Assembly: GCA_030430495.1 (NCBI GenBank)
Contig: JAUIKM010000004.1
Location: 1 to 64,000, forward strand
Length of the DNA: 64,000 nt
Origin: a bacterium
GTDB lineage: Bacteria > Bacteroidota > Ignavibacteria > Kapaibacteriales > UBA7675
Reading direction: 5' to 3'
The position numbers were made by a program, and so were the translations under genes. Below, piece after piece: positions 1,753 to 53,125 of the stretch; position 1 is the first letter of the stretch, and the number at the start of each line of letters is the position of its first letter. The notes under the pieces were generated by a model. That model was not told where the DNA came from. It saw nothing but the letters and a program-made list of their open reading frames with translations, and made no database searches.

Positions 1753-2523
1753 TCAGCGGAGGAGTTCGGAAAGGCGCTTGATCAGTTCGTCCTTTTTGCG
1801 ACGCGATACCGCGATTGTGGCTTTGTCGCGCATCTCCACACGGCCGCCGTCACTGCGGATGTATTTGACCACGTGGTCCAGATTGACGAGGTGTGAATTG
1901 TGCACACGGAAAAAATCCGAGTCGCCCAGCATGTCGTCGTAGACTTTGATCGGTTTGGAGACGACGATTTTGTCGCTGTTGAGCAGCACCACCTCCGTGT
2001 AGGAGCCGGACGCCTCAAAACGCACGATGTCCTTGACTTCAACAAACTGCAGGCCGTCGCTGAAAGGCAGCGCAATCTTTGCGTTGGCAGGCGAAGCCGC
2101 GCGCACATTTTCCAGCAGGCCGCGCAGAGCTACCTGGGTCTCCGCCGCATCGCCCGAACTTTCGGCCAGTTCCTTGCGTGCTCGGTCCACCGCCAGCACC
2201 AGTTCGTCGCCGTCAATCGGTTTGAGCAGGTAATCCAGCGCGGCGTATTTGATCGCCTTGAGCGCGTACTCGCCGTGGGCCGTGGTAAAAATGACTTTGA
2301 ACCGAATATCGCCGACCTGTTCGAGCAGCTGGAAGCCGCTGCCGCCCGGCATCTGAATATCGAGAAAAACGATGTCGGGTTTGTGTTCGCGGACGGCCTC
2401 GACACCGGCGGAGGCGGAATCTGCCTCGGCCAATATTTTAACATCGGGACAGTGCATTTCCAGCAGAGTGCGGAGCGTGGTACGTCCGCGCGGTTCGTCG
2501 TCGACGATCAGAGCAGTGAGCAT
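1753..2523 (-). CDS. LytTR-family response regulator
   Basis: 256-residue DNA-binding response regulator. The receiver domain fills residues 1-120: the acidic pair is D8-D9, the phosphate acceptor is D55 in FLDIQMPG, the switch Thr are at 80-81 and the conserved Lys is K101 in LLKPIDG. A LytTR DNA-binding domain occupies about 150-256 (FVEVKDIVRFEASGSYT, then FFRVHNSHLVNLDHV). ATG 2523 is preferred to a TTG two codons earlier. It lies 63 bp after the LytS-type sensor kinase, its almost certain partner, and is the last gene of a five-gene minus-strand run headed by an ECF sigma factor. Target genes are not visible from sequence. Confidence 0.95.
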   Translation of the reverse strand: MLTALIVDDEPRGRTTLRTLLEMHCPDVKILAEADSASAGVEAVREHKPDIVFLDIQMPGGSGFQLLEQVGDIRFKVIFTTAHGEYALKAIKYAALDYLLKPIDGDELVLAVDRARKELAESSGDAAETQVALRGLLENVRAASPANAKIALPFSDGLQFVEVKDIVRFEASGSYTEVVLLNSDKIVVSKPIKVYDDMLGDSDFFRVHNSHLVNLDHVVKYIRSDGGRVEMRDKATIAVSRRKKDELIKRLSELLR

Positions 2524-2586
2524 AATCAAATCGTTCGGGAGTTGAATTGACAGAGCCGGGAATGAGTTGGTCGCGCAGGCGGCAAT

Positions 2587-5500
2587 TTAATCCACCGGCA
2601 CCAGAATTTCTACTTTTGTACCGACGGCCTGGCCCTCCGCGTCGTACAAATCCTTCACTTCCACGCGGTATTTATTGGAGCGCCCCTGCGACATCACGTC
2701 CAGACGCTGGCGCGTAACGTCCATGCCGACCGACTTGCGATGCAGATCGTCCGACTTGCGCAATTCCTGGGCGCGCTTGCGTCCGATGCCGTTATCTTCC
2801 ACACAAACCATGACTGTTTGCTCGTCATGCGGCGCGACGCTCACGAGCAACAAGCCGGGCTCGGACCGCTGCGAGAGCCCGTGCAAAATGGCGTTCTCAA
2901 CGTAGGGCTGCACGAGCAGGGGCGGCACGCTGACCTCGTCCAACTCTACCGTCGGATCGATGTGAAATTCTGTTTTGTACTTGTGTTCAAAACGCAGTTG
3001 CTCCAGGTCGGTGTAATATCGCAGTGCGTCGAGTTCTTCCGCCAGCGTGATCAGATCGCGCTGCGAGTTTTCGAGCACCTGACGCATCAGTCGCGCAAAC
3101 TTGGTCAGGTACTGCAGAGCGCGGCGCGTGTCGTTTTCGACAATCAGACTGACGATGGAGTTCAGCGAGTTGAACATAAAGTGCGGGTTCATCTGCGAAC
3201 GCAGCGCCTGCAGGCGGTAGGAAATCACCTTGCCCTGCAACTCGGCGCGCTCCCGCACCACGCGCAGACGCAGCAGAATAGCGCCGACAAGCGCCCCAAG
3301 CACAATCGCCCCGGCGGCAAAGCGGAACCACAGCGTCTGGTAAATCGCCGGGTGAATCACAATGCGCACTTCCGTCGCCTGCCCGGCCACGCCGTCGTTG
3401 TTGCGCCCCTCCACGCGGAAAATGTAGTCGCCCGGCGGAACCGAGGTGTACTGCGCCAGGCGTCGCACTCCGACACTGTTGCGCGGGCGGCGCTCAAAAT
3501 TGATCAACTGGTACGAGTATTCGTTCTGCTGCGGATTCGTGAAATCCAACGCCGCAAACTCAATGGTGAAGAAGTTCTGGTCGTGTTCGAGATCAATACG
3601 ACGCTGATACACGATCGACGAATCGAGCTGTAGCTCCTCGTCAAACACACGAAAACCCGTGATGTGCACGCGCGGCGAGTTGACGTTGCGACGCACGTTA
3701 AACGGATGAAAAATGACCATGCCGCTGCTGCCGCCGAAATAGAGCTCGCCGACACTGCTGCGAAAACCCGCGCCAAACACAAAATCGCTGACCAGCAGTC
3801 CATCGGAGCTCGTGTAGTGCTGAAAGTGATGCACCGAGGGCGTAAAACGCGTGATGCCCGTGCTCGTGCTCAGCCAGATGTGCTCTCCGTCGCCGGAGAG
3901 AATTGCGGCGACGATGTTGGAGCCGAGGCCCTGACGCCCATCGTAAATCTGCGAGCTCTCCGTCGCCGGATCGTAGCCGATCAGCCCGCCGCCCGTGGCC
4001 AGCCAGACGCGGCCGTCATTGCCCAGATGCACATCGCGCACGCGTTCCGCACCAGGCCCGAGCGTGCGCGCGGCATTGAGTTCGATCCGCCGCGTGCGGT
4101 AGTCGAGCGTCGAGATTGTGGCCAGGCCGTTGGTCGTGCCGACCCAAAGCAAGGACTGTTCGCGGTCGAGCGCGAGCGCGCCGATCCGGTTGGCCGGCAG
4201 CGAAGCCACGTCGGCCGGATCGTGCACAAAACGCCGCAGCTGCCCGGTTTCCGGCTCAAACAGATACAAACCGCGGCGGGTGGAACCGATCCAGAGGCGT
4301 CCGCCGCCGTCCACAGCCAGGCGTTGGATGCGCATGCCGCCGCCGTCAAGGCCCGGCACCGAATCAAGAAAGTAGCGCCGGAAAACGCCGCTTTCGCGAT
4401 CAAAATAGTTGAGTCCGCGGCTGGCGCCGATCCACAGCCCGCCGCTGCGCGCCGGCACGATGGCATTGATCACGTTGTCGCTGACGGTCGTGCTGTCGTC
4501 GTCCTCGGTCTGATAATAGCGCACGCCCTTTTCAAAGAGGTCGATGCGATTGAGACCGCCGCCGCCCGTGCCGACCCAGACGACGCCTTCGTCATCTTCG
4601 TAAATGCTTTTGACGCGCCCGTGGCTGAGGCCGCGATGCGCCACCGTGTCAAAACCGTAGTGGCCGAATATCCAGCGGCTGCCCGTCAGCTTGGCCAGGC
4701 CGCCGTTGGTACCGATCCACATATTGCCGCTGCGATCTCTTTTGATGTCATAAACGCGACTGCCGGCCAGACTGAAAGGATTGTCGGAGCGGATAAATTG
4801 ATCGGTCCGGCCGTTGGCCAGGTTATAGCGCAGCAGGCCCGCGGAACGCGTGCCGAGCCAGATCAGCTCGGTGCTGTCGCGGTACATCGCCATTATCTGC
4901 TGCGCACCGCTTTCTTCAAACTGGAGGGAGTCGAGGCTGAAGTTCTGATAGCTGTTGTCGCGCGGATCAATCCGATAAAACTCGGGGCCGGCGCCGGTCC
5001 ACAGCGCACCCGTGCCGTCGCGGAACAGGGCCTGCGTGGCTTCAAATCGACCGAATTCCCATGTGCGCGGTTCGACGGACAGCGCAAATTCGCGCGCCCG
5101 GGCGTCCCAGCGCCACAGGCCGTTGCCGTCAACGCCCAGCCAAATGCCGCCGTCCGCATCGGCGTTGAGAGCGACGGGTTCGGTCAGATTGACAAAGTCG
5201 CGCGTGAAACTCTCCGCTTCAAAGCGCTGCACAATCCCGCTGCTTTTGTCGTAACGGCGCAGGGGCGCGCGTTCGTCGTTGTCGAGAATCCAGATTGCAC
5301 CTTCCGCGTCCTCCGCCAGCGCGAGCACCTGCGCCTCAAATTCGCTGTCGCCGCCCGCCGCCGGCGGCGCGCCCGAAACAGTCTTCGTCAGGCTTTCGAG
5401 CGATTCAAAACGCATCTGCGCGCGGTCCATGCGCACCACGCCGCCGTTGGCGGTGCCGAGCCACAGATAACCGTCGCGGTCTTCAATGATACATTCAACC

Positions 5501-5787
5501 TGCGAGTCGCTGATGGACCAGGGATTGTTCGGGTCGTGCCGGAAGGTGCGGAAAGAATAAGCGTCAAATCGACAGAGGCCGTCGCGCGTGCCGAGCCAGA
5601 GGAAGTCGTCGCTGCCCTGCAGAATACAAAGGACGTGGTTGTCGCTCAGGCCGTCGGAGGTGGTGTAGCGCTCAAAGCGGACTTCACTGAACGGAGCCTG
5701 GGCCGCGGCATGGAAGCCGCCGCACAGGCTCAGAATTGCGGCAAAACATATCGCGCGGCAGAAGCTGCGGGTCACGTGTCGGTTCAT
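2587..5787 (-). CDS. Propeller-type LytS-like sensor histidine kinase
   Basis: 1066 residues. A signal peptide (about 1-30) is followed by some twelve two-component-regulator propeller repeats, each with a [IVL]W[IVL]GT-type core (for example FLWLGTRDGL, NMWIGTNGGL, LLWVGTTNGL). A Y_Y_Y domain (about 745-815), one membrane helix (about 818-838) and a cytoplasmic His_kinase/HATPase pair follow. The phospho-accepting His is H869 in QMNPHFMFNSLNSI; the ATP-binding N box is at 965 (YVENAILHG) and the G1 box at about 998 (EDNGIG). The kinase part is the LytS/YehU type, which fits the LytTR regulator 63 bp downstream. Unlike Bacteroides hybrid systems the regulator is a separate protein. The ligand is unknown. 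The upstream neighbour is a META-domain lipoprotein, 55 bp away. Confidence 0.95.
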   Translation of the reverse strand: MNRHVTRSFCRAICFAAILSLCGGFHAAAQAPFSEVRFERYTTSDGLSDNHVLCILQGSDDFLWLGTRDGLCRFDAYSFRTFRHDPNNPWSISDSQVECIIEDRDGYLWLGTANGGVVRMDRAQMRFESLESLTKTVSGAPPAAGGDSEFEAQVLALAEDAEGAIWILDNDERAPLRRYDKSSGIVQRFEAESFTRDFVNLTEPVALNADADGGIWLGVDGNGLWRWDARAREFALSVEPRTWEFGRFEATQALFRDGTGALWTGAGPEFYRIDPRDNSYQNFSLDSLQFEESGAQQIMAMYRDSTELIWLGTRSAGLLRYNLANGRTDQFIRSDNPFSLAGSRVYDIKRDRSGNMWIGTNGGLAKLTGSRWIFGHYGFDTVAHRGLSHGRVKSIYEDDEGVVWVGTGGGGLNRIDLFEKGVRYYQTEDDDSTTVSDNVINAIVPARSGGLWIGASRGLNYFDRESGVFRRYFLDSVPGLDGGGMRIQRLAVDGGGRLWIGSTRRGLYLFEPETGQLRRFVHDPADVASLPANRIGALALDREQSLLWVGTTNGLATISTLDYRTRRIELNAARTLGPGAERVRDVHLGNDGRVWLATGGGLIGYDPATESSQIYDGRQGLGSNIVAAILSGDGEHIWLSTSTGITRFTPSVHHFQHYTSSDGLLVSDFVFGAGFRSSVGELYFGGSSGMVIFHPFNVRRNVNSPRVHITGFRVFDEELQLDSSIVYQRRIDLEHDQNFFTIEFAALDFTNPQQNEYSYQLINFERRPRNSVGVRRLAQYTSVPPGDYIFRVEGRNNDGVAGQATEVRIVIHPAIYQTLWFRFAAGAIVLGALVGAILLRLRVVRERAELQGKVISYRLQALRSQMNPHFMFNSLNSIVSLIVENDTRRALQYLTKFARLMRQVLENSQRDLITLAEELDALRYYTDLEQLRFEHKYKTEFHIDPTVELDEVSVPPLLVQPYVENAILHGLSQRSEPGLLLVSVAPHDEQTVMVCVEDNGIGRKRAQELRKSDDLHRKSVGMDVTRQRLDVMSQGRSNKYRVEVKDLYDAEGQAVGTKVEILVPVD

Positions 5788-5842: not shown

Positions 5843-6757
5843 CTAGTTGACTGTGTACGGAACCGTGAACGTGCTTTTGGGATTGCCGCCCGCGACGGTG
5901 AGATTGATCGTCTCGGGAGACTCAACGCCGTCCGCACCGCGCAGCGAAAGACGAATCGTTTCCAGCGAAAAGCGCACGTCGACATCGATAGCCGTGTCGC
6001 AGGCGTCAAAGATCTGGTTCTTGGTAACCTCCAGGAACAACTCATCGCTTCCGAGCTGCACAAAGGGCCCCTGATTGACGTAAAACTCGTGGTCTTCACA
6101 TCCGCCGCTGTAGGAGACCGAGATCACCAACGTCTGGTCCTCCACCCTTACGTCTTTCAATTCAAACTCGCTGCTGTTTTCCCCGAGAACTTCGGACCCG
6201 CCGTTGAGCGTCACAACTTTACGGCGAAAGAACTGATCGCCGGCGTCGCGGAAAACCAAGGTGCGCTCCGCACCCGTGCCCTCGTCGAAGTACAACTCCA
6301 GTTCGTCGTCGGCCATGCGGTAATTGGTCGCGCGCGTCAACATGTCAAGATAGGTGTCCGCCAGCCCGTCGTTGCAGCGCTCGCCGCCGTGCTGCGGCTC
6401 GATCAGGTCGACTTCGCGATTGTCCTTCGTCGCCGTATAAGGCGCGGTGTACAGGCGGCAGGCCGCCGTTCCGCGACAGGACGAGTCGTTGAAAAACTCC
6501 ACCGTGTAAACATAACCCGCGGGCGGCGTCATCCACCCGGCATCATCCGGAATCAGCAGCGCCAGACGCCACTGTTTGTCCAGTATCGAGGCAAAGGGAT
6601 TGTCGCTGTCGATCGGCTCCGTGCCCGGATCCATCGGATTGATCGTCGCCTCGCCGCAGGACGCGAACGCCAGGACCGCCAACGCGCCGACAAACAGGGA
6701 AAACATCCTGCCGAGAGCGCCGGCCCGAAAAGTATATGGTCGATTTGTTGTTGTCAT
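5843..6757 (-). CDS. META/HslJ-domain lipoprotein
   Basis: 304 residues. An N-terminal hydrophobic stretch ends in LAFASC, a near-consensus lipobox, so an envelope lipoprotein is likely. Residues about 55-165 fit a META domain of the HslJ type: W followed by a Tyr-rich strand, a small-Cys region, LYTAPYT, then a Cys near a Tyr/Leu-rich end (ELELYF). The C-terminal 140 residues are beta-rich and unassigned. ATG 6757 was chosen over a longer frame because GGAG sits 10 bases upstream and it leaves a 16-bp gap to the anti-sigma gene. META proteins are often tied to envelope stress, which suits this operon, but the exact role is inferred. Confidence 0.75.
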   Translation of the reverse strand: MTTTNRPYTFRAGALGRMFSLFVGALAVLAFASCGEATINPMDPGTEPIDSDNPFASILDKQWRLALLIPDDAGWMTPPAGYVYTVEFFNDSSCRGTAACRLYTAPYTATKDNREVDLIEPQHGGERCNDGLADTYLDMLTRATNYRMADDELELYFDEGTGAERTLVFRDAGDQFFRRKVVTLNGGSEVLGENSSEFELKDVRVEDQTLVISVSYSGGCEDHEFYVNQGPFVQLGSDELFLEVTKNQIFDACDTAIDVDVRFSLETIRLSLRGADGVESPETINLTVAGGNPKSTFTVPYTVN

Positions 6758-6773: not shown

Positions 6774-8105
6774 TCAGAAGGAAACACTGATACCATAAGC
6801 CGCGCCGATCCGCGCGGCGGTAAAGACTTGTCCGTCGAGCTCGTACAACAGCAGGCTGCCGTCCGCGCCCAGGTTGAAACTGACGCGGTCCGCCGCGCGC
6901 CACGAAAGTGCCGAGTACATGCGTCCGAATGGTCCGCTGCGGCTGCCGCCCGCGCTCAACTGGTTGAGCCAGTCCATTTCCAGCGGCATGAAGTCCAGCG
7001 GCAGACGCGATTGCAGCGACGCGCCCATCCACCAGATGCGATTCTGCAGGCTGAAGCCCGCCGGCGAGTTGTCGGCCACGTAGAGCGGAAATGTCTCCTG
7101 CCCGCCCTCGACGCCGACCGCCCACTTGTCGTTCAGTCTGAACAGCACGCCCAGCGACATGTTGTTGAACCACGGGCCCGCCTTTTCGCGCCCGATTGAG
7201 CGCAGCGGATACCACTCCAGGTTCTCAAAACCGCGGATTTCAAACAACAGACCGTCCAGAAATTCCGGCGCTGCCGGCGGCCATTGTGTATCGCGCAGGC
7301 GCACGATCTTGTTGAATTCCGCGGCGGAAATGCGCGCCGCAACGGGAACATTGTCGCGGCGCAGCCCTGCCGGCACAAGCGCCTCGATCCGCGCGGCGGC
7401 CTCGGTCACAGTTGAAACATCGGAGTCGTTCAGTTCGGCGGTCCCGTCGTTCGCGGCTGCCTCGGCTTCTTCCCGGCTGCGGGCCCAGGCGCGCGCATCG
7501 GCGGCCAGCGTGTAGAGCGCCTCGCGCAACTCGGTTTCGCGCCGCGACAGCTCGGAACGCGAAGCCTCCAGCGCGCGGCGCAGCCCGTAGTTGTCATTCT
7601 TGAGCGTGTCCCGCTCCGCCGCGGCGGACTGCAATGCGCCGCTCAGCACCGCCACCTGCGTTGCAAGACTGTCCGATCCCGCCGCCGCGTTCTGCACTGC
7701 GGCATCAACCGACGCCAGGCCGCCGGATTCGCCGGCCTGCCCGCCGCCCAGCCACAGGAACATCAGCAGCGCGCCCGCCAGCAGCCCGCCCGCCAGTACA
7801 AGAGGCAGCGGCAACGCGCGTTTTTTGTCCTGGCCGCCGTCCGGGCCCACGGCCGCGGGCGCCGCCGGAGGCGTCATGCCCGCACGTGAAAACAGACTGT
7901 CGACCACTTCCCGCGGCGGCAGCACATCGCTGCGATCCTGTTCGATCGCGCTGCGAATGCGCATCGCCTCGGCAAACTCGGCCTGCAGATCGTCGTTGTT
8001 CGAGAGCGCCGCAAACAGCAGCGCCTGCTGCGCGGCGTCGGCCTCGTTATCGATAAAGAGATCGATAAGCTCGGACGGCGAGAAGTTGTGCGGATCAGCC
8101 ATCAT
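6774..8105 (-). CDS. Dma-like dual-membrane anti-sigma factor (coiled coil plus beta-barrel)
   Basis: 443 residues with an unusual order. Residues 1-75 are an acidic cytoplasmic domain like anti-sigma N-termini (ELIDLFIDNEAD...LFAALSNNDDLQAEF). One membrane helix lies at about 97-118. An alanine- and glutamate-rich coiled coil at about 143-215 would cross the periplasm. From about 285 to the end come amphipathic strands with glycine turns, finishing in SVSF with a C-terminal Phe as in outer-membrane barrels. This layout matches the dual membrane-spanning anti-sigma factors (Dma) described in Bacteroides thetaiotaomicron. The ECF sigma gene is 18 bp upstream. Inferred role: holds the sigma factor until a signal at the outer membrane releases it. 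The N-terminus has two Met in a row, so the start is uncertain by one codon. Confidence 0.85.
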   Translation of the reverse strand: MMADPHNFSPSELIDLFIDNEADAAQQALLFAALSNNDDLQAEFAEAMRIRSAIEQDRSDVLPPREVVDSLFSRAGMTPPAAPAAVGPDGGQDKKRALPLPLVLAGGLLAGALLMFLWLGGGQAGESGGLASVDAAVQNAAAGSDSLATQVAVLSGALQSAAAERDTLKNDNYGLRRALEASRSELSRRETELREALYTLAADARAWARSREEAEAAANDGTAELNDSDVSTVTEAAARIEALVPAGLRRDNVPVAARISAAEFNKIVRLRDTQWPPAAPEFLDGLLFEIRGFENLEWYPLRSIGREKAGPWFNNMSLGVLFRLNDKWAVGVEGGQETFPLYVADNSPAGFSLQNRIWWMGASLQSRLPLDFMPLEMDWLNQLSAGGSRSGPFGRMYSALSWRAADRVSFNLGADGSLLLYELDGQVFTAARIGAAYGISVSF

Positions 8106-8123
8106 GAGACACCACTATTCTAT

Positions 8124-8690
8124 TCATTTGCTTCTGTATTCTTCAAGGTAGGGCGAGAGAACCTCGCGAATCTTGCGTTTGGCGCGCACCACCCAGTTGC
8201 GCACGCTGGTCATCGGAACTTCCATCAGGTCCGCTATCTCTTTGTACGACAGACCGTTATAGGTTTGCAGCACAAAGGCTTCGCGGTGATTCTCCGGCAG
8301 CAGGTCCAGCGCCAGCGCCACCAGACGCGCCAGTTCTTTCGATTCGAGCGTCACATCCTCCACGGCAATATTCAGCTCTTCAATCGGCACCAGCTCACGC
8401 GCATTGCGCTTTTTGTTGTCAAAACACAGATTGCGCGCTATCCGCAAAACATAGGCCGGCACGTTGTCGATCCGCTCCACCCGATTGGCGGACTGCAGCA
8501 GACGCAAAAACGTCTCCTGGAAAACGTCGTTGGCGTGTTCCTCGTCGCCGAGGATGCGCAGACAGTACAGGTAGACCCGCCGCGAGTGCCGGTTGTACAG
8601 CTCGGCGAACGCCGCTTCGCGTTCTTTGCCGTTGCCGCGCAGCCGCTCGAACAATTCCGAATCGCCTGTATTGCGCAAATCGTTTGCCAT
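8124..8690 (-). CDS. ECF sigma factor (RpoE/Das-like)
   Basis: 188-residue sigma-70 family protein. Region 2 is visible in FAELYNRHSRRVYLYCLRIL followed by GDEEHANDVFQETFLRLL; region 4 is LPENHREAFVLQTYNGLSYKEIADLM and a helix-turn-helix, VPMTSVRNWVVRAKRKI. ATG 8690 gives a normal ECF length; an earlier in-frame start would add about 22 residues of low-complexity sequence. It directly precedes a membrane anti-sigma factor, 18 bp away, as is usual for ECF pairs. It likely recruits RNA polymerase to an envelope-response regulon, probably including this operon. No matching promoter could be identified by eye. Confidence 0.95.
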   Translation of the reverse strand: MANDLRNTGDSELFERLRGNGKEREAAFAELYNRHSRRVYLYCLRILGDEEHANDVFQETFLRLLQSANRVERIDNVPAYVLRIARNLCFDNKKRNARELVPIEELNIAVEDVTLESKELARLVALALDLLPENHREAFVLQTYNGLSYKEIADLMEVPMTSVRNWVVRAKRKIREVLSPYLEEYRSK

Positions 8691-8784
8691 GCAATCGTGT
8701 CGTGTGCTTGTTGCCTGGACGGCGGAATGACGCCGCATTTTCCGCCCTTGCCACAAATGACGCCCTTTGCCGATTCTTGATTCA

Positions 8785-15667: not shown

Positions 15668-16993
15668 TTACCAGTTTTCCATGTTGTCGCTGCTGAAACC
15701 GTACACGCTCCCCAGCGTGGTTTTGAGCGTCGCATAGTCCGTCAGGAACTTCTGGTAGTCGCCCGAGCCCGGAGAGGAAATCGGCGGATTCATGCCCATG
15801 ATGTCGGCCATGTCGGTCAACTGGGTGTCGCTGATTTGTTTAAAGGGATTGTACTGCAGCGCCATCGTGAAACCGCGCATTTCGGACCAGTGTTTGTTTA
15901 AACTTTCCATGTCCTCAAACGGTCCGCCCACAGCGGCAACGTCGGCCAGCGTTTCGTTGATGTAGTGCACGATGGTGGCGGCAATCACTTCCTCCCAGAC
16001 ACGCGCCAAAGCGAGCTGCTGCGTGCGAATTTCTTCGGTGGTCGCCTGGTTCACAATAGCCGTGCGGCCTTCCAGCGCGGCATTAAACGCATCGGCCGTG
16101 AAATCGACGCCGCTGCCTCCCTTGTCGCGTTTGCCGGCATTGCGCGCAAAACCGAAGTTAAACTCGGATTTGAAGTCGATAAACCCGTCGGAATTGGCGT
16201 CGCCGGCATACGGCAGTACACCGCCGCTGAGACTGCCGGCAAGATCTTCGTCTGAAAAAGCGGAATAGTTGCGCGCCGCGCCGAAGTAACCGAATGCTTC
16301 GTCCCAGGAGTGTTCCATCGTTGTGTATGGATCCGTGCCGTTGCGGGCCGCGCTGTTGTCCTGCTCCAGCAGGCCGTCCAGATAAACGCCCGTGCCCTGG
16401 TAGTACGAGACCGCACCGAGCAGCAGTTTGTTAATCAACTCGGAAAGGTCCGCGCCGTCGGCCGTTGTGTACACTGCGGGCGTGCCGAGTTTATCGCCGT
16501 CGTTGGAGTTGTCGACGATAATCCGGAACCACTCGCGCAGCAGCTCATCGGCCGTTTTACCCGTGCCGATGACCGTGGCGGGCGAGATTTTGCCGACGAG
16601 GTTTTTCTCGGTGGCAATAGCGGAGTAGGAAGTCTCCAGCAGCGGTTTTGTGCCGGCGGTTGTCATCGTCTGCAGGTTGAGGTTGTCGTTGTAATCGTAG
16701 AGATTCAGGAAATCCTGCATCGTGACGGGGCCGCTCGCGGAGGCGCTGCCGAGCTCGTTAACCAGCCTGGTAATGTCTTCCAGCAGCAGGTTGCGGACGG
16801 TCTGTCCGCCGTAGTTGACGGAGCTGACACCGTCCTGAAAACGACTCTCAAACACGTAGGCCGACGGCACCGGCACAGTCGTATCGCTCGGCCCCGGATT
16901 GTCGTCGTCATCGTCGCAGGAGACCAGCCCCAGCGCGAGGATTCCACATGTTAATACAGCTGCAAAGCGCGGGTTAAATATTCGCATCCACAT
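15668..16993 (-). CDS. DUF4856 (imelysin-like) lipoprotein
   Basis: About 441 residues. The lipobox LVSC is followed by five Asp, a pattern linked to surface export of lipoproteins in Bacteroidota. The body matches DUF4856, an imelysin-related family: VNYGGQTVRNLLLEDI near the start, a long helical core, and MEHSWDEAFGYFGA in the middle. Imelysin-type proteins are usually iron-regulated envelope proteins. It follows a FecA-like receptor by 82 bp and ends the operon at a strong terminator. The start is uncertain by two codons (ATG 16993 or 16987). Confidence 0.85.
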   Translation of the reverse strand: MWMRIFNPRFAAVLTCGILALGLVSCDDDDDNPGPSDTTVPVPSAYVFESRFQDGVSSVNYGGQTVRNLLLEDITRLVNELGSASASGPVTMQDFLNLYDYNDNLNLQTMTTAGTKPLLETSYSAIATEKNLVGKISPATVIGTGKTADELLREWFRIIVDNSNDGDKLGTPAVYTTADGADLSELINKLLLGAVSYYQGTGVYLDGLLEQDNSAARNGTDPYTTMEHSWDEAFGYFGAARNYSAFSDEDLAGSLSGGVLPYAGDANSDGFIDFKSEFNFGFARNAGKRDKGGSGVDFTADAFNAALEGRTAIVNQATTEEIRTQQLALARVWEEVIAATIVHYINETLADVAAVGGPFEDMESLNKHWSEMRGFTMALQYNPFKQISDTQLTDMADIMGMNPPISSPGSGDYQKFLTDYATLKTTLGSVYGFSSDNMENW

Positions 16994-17075
16994 AGCAGTC
17001 AAGCGGTTTCAGTGATTGAATTCGAACGCGGGAGACAACATTCGATTTGTTGGGTTGCCCCGCCGGAACAGACGG

Positions 17076-51700: not shown

Positions 51701-51739
51701 CGGCGTTCATTGCCGCGCCCATCCTGCGCCCAATCTGAT

Positions 51740-53125
51740 ATGGATATTGACATCACTCTCATACTCGGCTCGATCATCGGATTTGCGATTGTCATCGGCG
51801 TTCTGGTGACGGTCCACGAATTCGGCCACTTCATCGCTGCGCGGCTTGCCGGTATGCGGGTGGAAATCTTTTCGATCGGCATGGGCAAACGCCTTTTCGG
51901 CTTCAACAACATCAACGGTTTTACCTTCGGCGAGCTACCCGACGACTGGGACGGCGGCGACAATACCGACTACCGCGTGGCGATCCTGCCCATCGGCGGT
52001 TACGTCAAAGTGCCCGGCATGATCGACGAAAGCATGGACACCGAACACGTTGAATCCGAACCCAAACCCTGGGAGTTCCGCGCCAAAGGCCCCTGGGCCA
52101 AAGCCCTGTTTATCACCGCCGGCGTGATCCTCAACTGGTTTCTGGCTGTCACCTTCTTCGCATACATCGCCTTTGTCGGCGGTGTGGAGACCAATCCGAC
52201 CACCAGCGTCGGCTACGTCGTTCCCGGCACGGCGGCCGAAGACGCGGGCCTGCGCACGGGCGACCGCATCTTCACTATTCGCGGCGATACCGTCCACAAC
52301 TGGGACGACATCATGGAAGGGCTCTTCTTCGACGACATCGGCAGCGACGTCGACGTCCAGCTCTACCGCAAGGGCGTACTGCGCCGACTGACGCTTTCGG
52401 GATTCAGACTGGCCGAGTTCCTCAAACATCCCCGTCGTTTTACCGGCCTCGTCAACAACCGCAGCGCCACCTTTGTTGCCAGCGTTGGCTCCGACCGTGC
52501 AAAGGAACTGGGCCTGCAACCCGGCGATACCATCGCCTACCTCAATACGGTTAAAATTTTCTCCTATGATCAGTTCCGGAACTACGTGGTGGCTCGCCCC
52601 GGCGAAACCATCGAAGTCACGTGGAAACGCGGCGCGGAAATGCACAGCGGCAAGGTGACCATTGACGAGACGGGAAAACTGGGCATCGGCCTGGGCGAGG
52701 AGTTCAACGGCATCCCGCGCGAATTCACCTTTGCCGGTTCGTGGAGTTACGGCTGGAACCGTTCCGTCAGCATTCTGACCGGCTTTTTCAACACGATTAC
52801 GGCAATCTTTACCGGCAAAGTGTCGGCCGGCGACTCACTCGGCGGGCCGATTGAGATAGCCAAACAGTCCGGTCTGCGCCTGCTCAGCGGCGACTTCAAC
52901 GGTTTCCTGGCCTTCATGGCTTCCCTCTCGGTCGTGCTGGCGCTGATCAACATCTTGCCGATTCCCGCGCTCGACGGCGGCCACCTGGTCATCATCATCG
53001 TGGAAGGCGTGATGCGGCGCGAACTGCCGACCAAAATTAAAATCTACATCCAGTACGCCGGCCTGATCTTTGTGCTCGGCCTGATGATTCTCGTGCTCGG
53101 TCTCGACATCAGCCGCTGGTTCTGA
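51740..53125 (+). CDS. rseP: Site-2 metalloprotease RseP
   Basis: 461 residues. The zinc motif HEFGH stands in the first membrane helix (VTVHEFGHFIAAR, residues about 26-38), PDZ domains lie in the periplasmic part (GYVVPGTAAEDAGLRTGDRI and RAKELGLQPGDTIAYL), and the final membrane segment has NILPIPALDGGHL near 405-417. RseP cleaves anti-sigma factors and signal peptides in the membrane, so it may act on the Dma-like anti-sigma factor 44 kb away (inference). ATG 51740 chosen on the family start. Confidence 0.96.
   Translation: MDIDITLILGSIIGFAIVIGVLVTVHEFGHFIAARLAGMRVEIFSIGMGKRLFGFNNINGFTFGELPDDWDGGDNTDYRVAILPIGGYVKVPGMIDESMDTEHVESEPKPWEFRAKGPWAKALFITAGVILNWFLAVTFFAYIAFVGGVETNPTTSVGYVVPGTAAEDAGLRTGDRIFTIRGDTVHNWDDIMEGLFFDDIGSDVDVQLYRKGVLRRLTLSGFRLAEFLKHPRRFTGLVNNRSATFVASVGSDRAKELGLQPGDTIAYLNTVKIFSYDQFRNYVVARPGETIEVTWKRGAEMHSGKVTIDETGKLGIGLGEEFNGIPREFTFAGSWSYGWNRSVSILTGFFNTITAIFTGKVSAGDSLGGPIEIAKQSGLRLLSGDFNGFLAFMASLSVVLALINILPIPALDGGHLVIIIVEGVMRRELPTKIKIYIQYAGLIFVLGLMILVLGLDISRWF

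Follow-up and report, generated by a model that had tools for sequence, protein, structure and literature searches.

Does a single polypeptide connect the outer membrane to an ECF sigma factor in a bacterium outside the genus Bacteroides, and what might such a protein sense? The question is raised by a three-gene unit in the window, by which we mean the whole stretch of 64,000 nucleotides that was analysed. The features of the unit, and of one unlinked gene that may be related to its function, are collected in Table 1.

Table 1. Coordinates of the features discussed, given in positions of the window
Feature	Position	Strand	Description
ECF sigma factor gene	8124..8690	-	188 aa from ATG 8690; Pfam matches
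Anti-sigma/barrel gene	6774..8105	-	443 aa, or 442 aa from the second Met, at 8102
Cytoplasmic anti-sigma domain	7878..8102	-	Residues 1-75, four helices
Single inner-membrane helix	7746..7805	-	Residues 100-119, N-in topology
Periplasmic helix, putative coiled coil	7428..7667	-	Residues 146-225, AlphaFold2
Eight-stranded outer-membrane beta-barrel (predicted)	6777..7250	-	Residues 285-442, C-terminal SVSF
Lipoprotein gene, third of the unit	5843..6757	-	About 304 aa from ATG 6757
RseP-type site-2 protease gene (M50 + PDZ)	51710..53125	+	TIGR00054, 237 bits; Peptidase_M50, E 2e-50

The sigma gene, whose longest open frame (8124-8756, minus strand) runs past the ATG adopted here, encodes a protein that matches Sigma70_r2 (E 6e-16) and Sigma70_r4_2 (E 2.4e-14) of Pfam and resembles TIGR02985 of NCBIfam, with 106 bits, below that model's cut-off of 126. 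It is separated by 18 nt from the anti-sigma gene, and the lipoprotein ATG follows 16 nt past the anti-sigma stop. The longest frame of the third gene overlaps the anti-sigma gene by 23 nt, and overlaps of -23 and -55 recur in relatives. A real overlap of 23 nt was rejected because the upstream ATG falls inside the Tyr-Gly codons at the end of the barrel, recurrently in relatives, and translation thus more likely begins at the later ATG. The lipobox of the lipoprotein ends in FASC, the sequence from the Cys onwards is CGEATINPMDP, and the rest shows weak DUF4847/META similarity. A histidine kinase with a Reg_prop/Y_Y_Y sensor and a LytTR response regulator adjoin the unit on the same strand (1753-5787). 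Elsewhere in the window there are a tandem array of 20-nt period that is split into two blocks (12-602 and 909-1279) and a 300-nt segment at 423-722 that is repeated at 1173-1472 with 95% identity.

The domain plan of the anti-sigma protein was examined with a full-length AlphaFold2 model built on an alignment of 43 sequences. It consists of four N-terminal helices (residues 9-73, pLDDT 82-97), the membrane helix, the long periplasmic helix and eight strands (285-441), and its best PDB matches by Foldseek are OmpA, Ail and FadL. The hydrophobic helix was placed at 102-120 by the transmembrane check, in the numbering of the 443-residue frame. Lys and Arg summed over 76 members amount to 127 ahead of this helix versus 69 behind it, which is what a cytoplasmic N-terminus would lead one to expect. 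Modelled on its own, the barrel again gives eight strands (pLDDT 92.2, pTM 0.85), with Ail, OmpA, NspA and OprF, all of them outer-membrane barrels, as the best PDB matches. The predicted extracellular loops are short, which would give scant space for a ligand to be recognised directly. Phe, with which outer-membrane barrels usually end, is the last residue of 47 of 75 members.

Recognition of the N-domain came from a profile searched against 177,635 PDB sequences, which found DdvA (E 0.0012), RsiW (0.0019) and RseA (0.011, 1or7_C), followed more weakly by another RseA N-domain (0.6) and MucA (0.73), so that five of the first seven matches are anti-sigma factors. By this homology the helical N-domain belongs to class I, the RseA/RsiW type. 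Other searches were less informative: Pfam and NCBIfam returned for the window protein coiled-coil noise alone and no real match, phmmer with the whole protein against the PDB returned an M-protein coiled coil alone, and the whole family gave in Pfam weak matches to RseA_N, zf-HC2 and OMP_b-brl and nothing else. The plan is not due to chance, since the same order of domains is found in 76 distinct full-length relatives, of which 72 lie behind an ECF sigma gene.

The earlier note on this DNA had read from the letters an anti-sigma domain, a membrane helix, a periplasmic part and a barrel at residues 285-442 ending in Phe, all in one protein that starts 18 bp after an ECF sigma gene. This reading is borne out by the two models, the N-domain profile matches, Foldseek, the relatives and the two open reading frames themselves. 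The periplasmic coiled coil that it also described stands for the window protein, whose tether of 165 residues includes an 80-residue predicted helix, but not as a general trait, as most relatives have Pro/Ser/Thr-rich tethers of approximately 100-185 residues.

The partner of the anti-sigma domain is indicated by gene order and by covariation. The upstream ECF sigma gene of those 72 members is on the same strand at a distance of up to 400 nt, in most cases 60 nt or less. Pairwise distances between sigma factors correlate with those between N-domains with r = 0.70, the permutation maximum being 0.195, and the correlation is 0.61 with the barrel and 0.25 with the tether. Inside two single genomes, the correlation between sigma factor and N-domain amounts to 0.56 (p 0.03) and 0.71 (p < 0.0005). 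This covariation supports cognate sigma/anti-sigma pairs, while falling short of proving binding.

How far does this type of protein extend? Of 41 related genomes, 40 contain relatives of the window protein. Among genomes that carry a name, the nearest are Ca. Kapaibacterium, Ignavibacteria, Chlorobiota and Bacteroidota MAGs, and NCBI taxonomy places Kapaibacterium in Bacteroidota; Eximiradiia; Eximiradiales. The host belongs to the order Kapaibacteriales, a deep branch within Bacteroidota. The placement outside Bacteroides is therefore right, but the phylum is the same, so the statement that Dma proteins occur solely among Bacteroidota still stands. Among 198 genomes sampled from the phylum, near-complete profile matches are almost confined to Kapaibacteriales, with one near-full-length match in a genome of the same class and mainly N-domain matches beyond these. 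More long proteins of the type, several of them with a terminal Phe, were seen in two other families of the class. In some other genomes the N-domain is joined to different periplasmic parts; in another family of the phylum, for instance, an ECF sigma gene precedes a gene whose product joins an anti-sigma N-domain and transmembrane helix to a trypsin-like protease domain (L112:1489-2586).

The family is also expanded within single genomes. Searched in 16 genomes, the barrel profile gave 10 matches in this genome, which has 33 Sigma70_r2 matches, and 21 matches in a relative from the same family. With few exceptions the matches fall within frames of 384-579 aa, and thus a barrel seldom occurs without an anti-sigma domain. 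What is new here is this expanded family of barrel anti-sigma proteins, usually in a three-gene unit with a lipoprotein.

The closest known systems are Dma1 and Dma2 (BT_1558), which work with the Das ECF21 sigma factors of Bacteroides thetaiotaomicron (PMC13088901; Pardue et al. PNAS 2024 as cited there). Dma2 has an anti-sigma domain, a transmembrane helix, a long disordered tether and a barrel, and it is encoded beside an ECF sigma gene in a three-gene operon (PMC13088901). The window unit agrees with this description in plan and gene order, the plan having been proposed from the sequence by the earlier note, and is likened to Dma on these grounds. It differs in that the tether is partly a long helix, in that no NigD was detected, in that some members of the order carry about 10-20 copies per genome versus three named in B. 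thetaiotaomicron, and in that one class of the lipoproteins has a post-Cys motif of its own. By analogy, we think that the window protein most likely works like a Dma.

Other systems share part of the plan. In EcfO/Reo and in the M0N98_03761/03760 pair of Phocaeicola vulgatus the gene after the ECF sigma gene likewise encodes an anti-sigma factor that is predicted to cross the periplasm and end in an outer-membrane barrel, in a context of envelope stress (PMC9308784, PMC13114119). Attack on the envelope elicits a response of the P. vulgatus pair (PMC9308784), and expression of EcfO-Reo in the gut is high (PMC13114119); these pairs are likened to ours by description, and, unlike the window system, their regulon includes NigD genes. 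RseA/sigma-E of E. coli, with RseB, DegS and RseP, resembles the window system in having a homologous type of anti-sigma domain, a single transmembrane helix and an RseP, whereas RseA lacks an outer-membrane barrel and RseB is a soluble periplasmic protein. The FecI-FecR-FecA system follows the same logic from outer-membrane barrel to anti-sigma factor to ECF sigma factor, but barrel and anti-sigma domain are fused here, and the barrel is eight-stranded instead of a TonB-dependent receptor.

Regulation and proteolysis leave further traces in the genomes. The pattern TAAC-N16-18-GTTA precedes 13 sigma gene entries, two of which are overlapping copies of one locus, against an expectation of 0.84 for the N17 spacing; for many of these sites the distance to the start is about 35 nt. 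This suggests that part of the family has autoregulated promoters. The pattern was not found before the sigma gene of the window, and classical ECF promoter patterns (GAAC...CGTC) are not enriched. The RseP-type protease gene is unlinked to the three-gene unit and is a candidate for the intramembrane cleavage step. Together with two HtrA-type proteases in the genome, it makes regulated intramembrane proteolysis possible.

On these grounds, we consider it probable that the locus is a three-gene envelope-signalling unit, with an outer-membrane-anchored anti-sigma sensor, a lipoprotein as its partner or feedback product, and release by proteolysis. The anti-sigma domain would retain its cognate sigma factor at the inner membrane, as homology and covariation indicate, while the same polypeptide would span the periplasm and be anchored in the outer membrane by the eight-stranded barrel, for which the prediction is of high confidence. 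Since anti-sigma domain, transmembrane helix, tether and predicted barrel belong to one polypeptide, one protein would physically couple both membranes. The trigger at the barrel might be the binding of a ligand or partner, failed barrel assembly, or displacement of the lipoprotein. A change in the barrel could then alter the periplasmic tether and expose it to a site-1 protease, after which the RseP-type protease may free the sigma factor. The latter would activate its own operon, the lipoprotein gene included, as the ECF-like promoter shared by some relatives, though not the window, would allow. The lipoprotein would act as a co-sensor that docks near the barrel via its post-Cys segment, or as a feedback output. 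Within this scheme, the analysis shows the gene order, the domain plan, the fold of the predicted barrel, the anti-sigma homology, the pairing with the sigma gene and the linkage of the lipoprotein, and from these we infer the signal, the order of the proteases, the direction of control and the regulon.

A lipoprotein-like frame lies directly 3' of 52 of the 74 members having room downstream, compared with 32 of 291 control frames under a closely similar lipoprotein filter; a detectable downstream lipoprotein is thus not common to all relatives. Two classes can be told apart by the sequence that starts at the lipid-bearing Cys, CxSPxDxDxxR in class A and CxExxINPxxP in class B, to which the window lipoprotein belongs. 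The class tracks the clade of the sigma factor, N-domain and barrel, and the C-terminal parts vary among META, ASH/HYDIN Ig-like, TIG and nothing known.

Seven whole genomes were searched with a class-A profile of 38 positions (A5). It gave 17 matches at E <= 0.0014, every one of which sits directly behind such a barrel on the same strand; about 10 had not been part of the training alignment, and weaker matches mostly reflect the signal peptide only. One of these barrels stands alone (G000:C25), with its own hydrophobic N-terminal leader and neither anti-sigma domain nor sigma gene, and a class-A lipoprotein nevertheless follows it. This single locus suggests that it is the barrel to which the lipoprotein belongs. 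A second stand-alone barrel (G034:C95) was rejected, because it runs off the contig end, and so was the class-B motif as an exclusive marker, because of a match at E 9e-7 away from any such barrel.

Several other arrangements of lipoprotein genes were seen. Three putative ones stand in tandem behind the barrel that runs off its contig (L148:1-2847), and elsewhere one anti-sigma gene is followed by two tandem lipoproteins with class-A-like post-Cys segments (L040:4651-5925, G000:C64). In a further stretch (L145:1127-2862), a META-like lipoprotein with the class-B-like sequence CRETPIDPW faces a gene whose 190-residue product has an OMP-like end, and there is no sigma gene in the stretch examined. 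The window itself holds another putative lipoprotein (15668-17002), with CDDDDDNPGP after the lipobox, a pattern unlike classes A and B.

It is quite conceivable, if somewhat short of an even chance, that the lipoprotein is a mere product of the regulon, an effector like NigD1 of B. thetaiotaomicron with no sensing role. Deletion of dma2 strongly induces das2 and the third gene of the operon, BT_1557, and NigD, which is required for the Dma1 phenotype, acts as NigD1 downstream of Dma1 (PMC13088901). Such a product would not lead one to expect a class-A post-Cys motif that is conserved while the C-terminal domains change, that in the seven genomes occurs behind these barrels only, and that stays with the barrel at the stand-alone locus. 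Going further in the direction of a sensing role, we tentatively propose, with a little less confidence than we give to the effector reading, that each anti-sigma protein has its own barrel and that specificity is set by a dedicated lipoprotein docking there, whose post-acyl motif is conserved and whose C-terminal domain is exchangeable; a genome might then run 10-20 parallel three-gene channels from the outside to the DNA.

The trigger could also be internal. In E. coli, DegS senses OMP C-termini, and the free aromatic C-terminus of an unassembled barrel might here be seen by an HtrA protease, with the tether then being cut, so that the protein would monitor its own assembly and need no external ligand. 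The terminal Phe of many members, the RseP and HtrA homologues and the related Phocaeicola pair, which reacts to envelope toxins together with genes that a BamA inhibitor induces (PMC9308784), are in favour of this rather unlikely alternative, but 10-21 paralogues per genome, mostly with their own sigma factor and often with their own lipoprotein, are hard to fit to one common stress signal. Control of vesiculation as by Dma1 and Dma2, which the earlier note had proposed to look for and which the shared domain plan and gene order (PMC13088901) would favour, is improbable and found no support, since NigD has no match in any of the 198 sampled genomes, this one included, the downstream lipoproteins differ, and Dma1 and Dma2 themselves work via different cascades.

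The three-gene envelope-signalling unit remains the preferred reading. Membrane-bridging proteins of sigma signalling in Gram-negative cells have been described only recently, in gut Bacteroides, and the plan is now extended, in large numbers, to a deep, mostly uncultured and little-studied branch of Bacteroidota. This adds to the Bacteroides work many independent pairs for comparative analysis. Moreover, the lipoprotein signature points to a concrete and testable partner of the barrel, and what such barrels sense becomes an approachable question.
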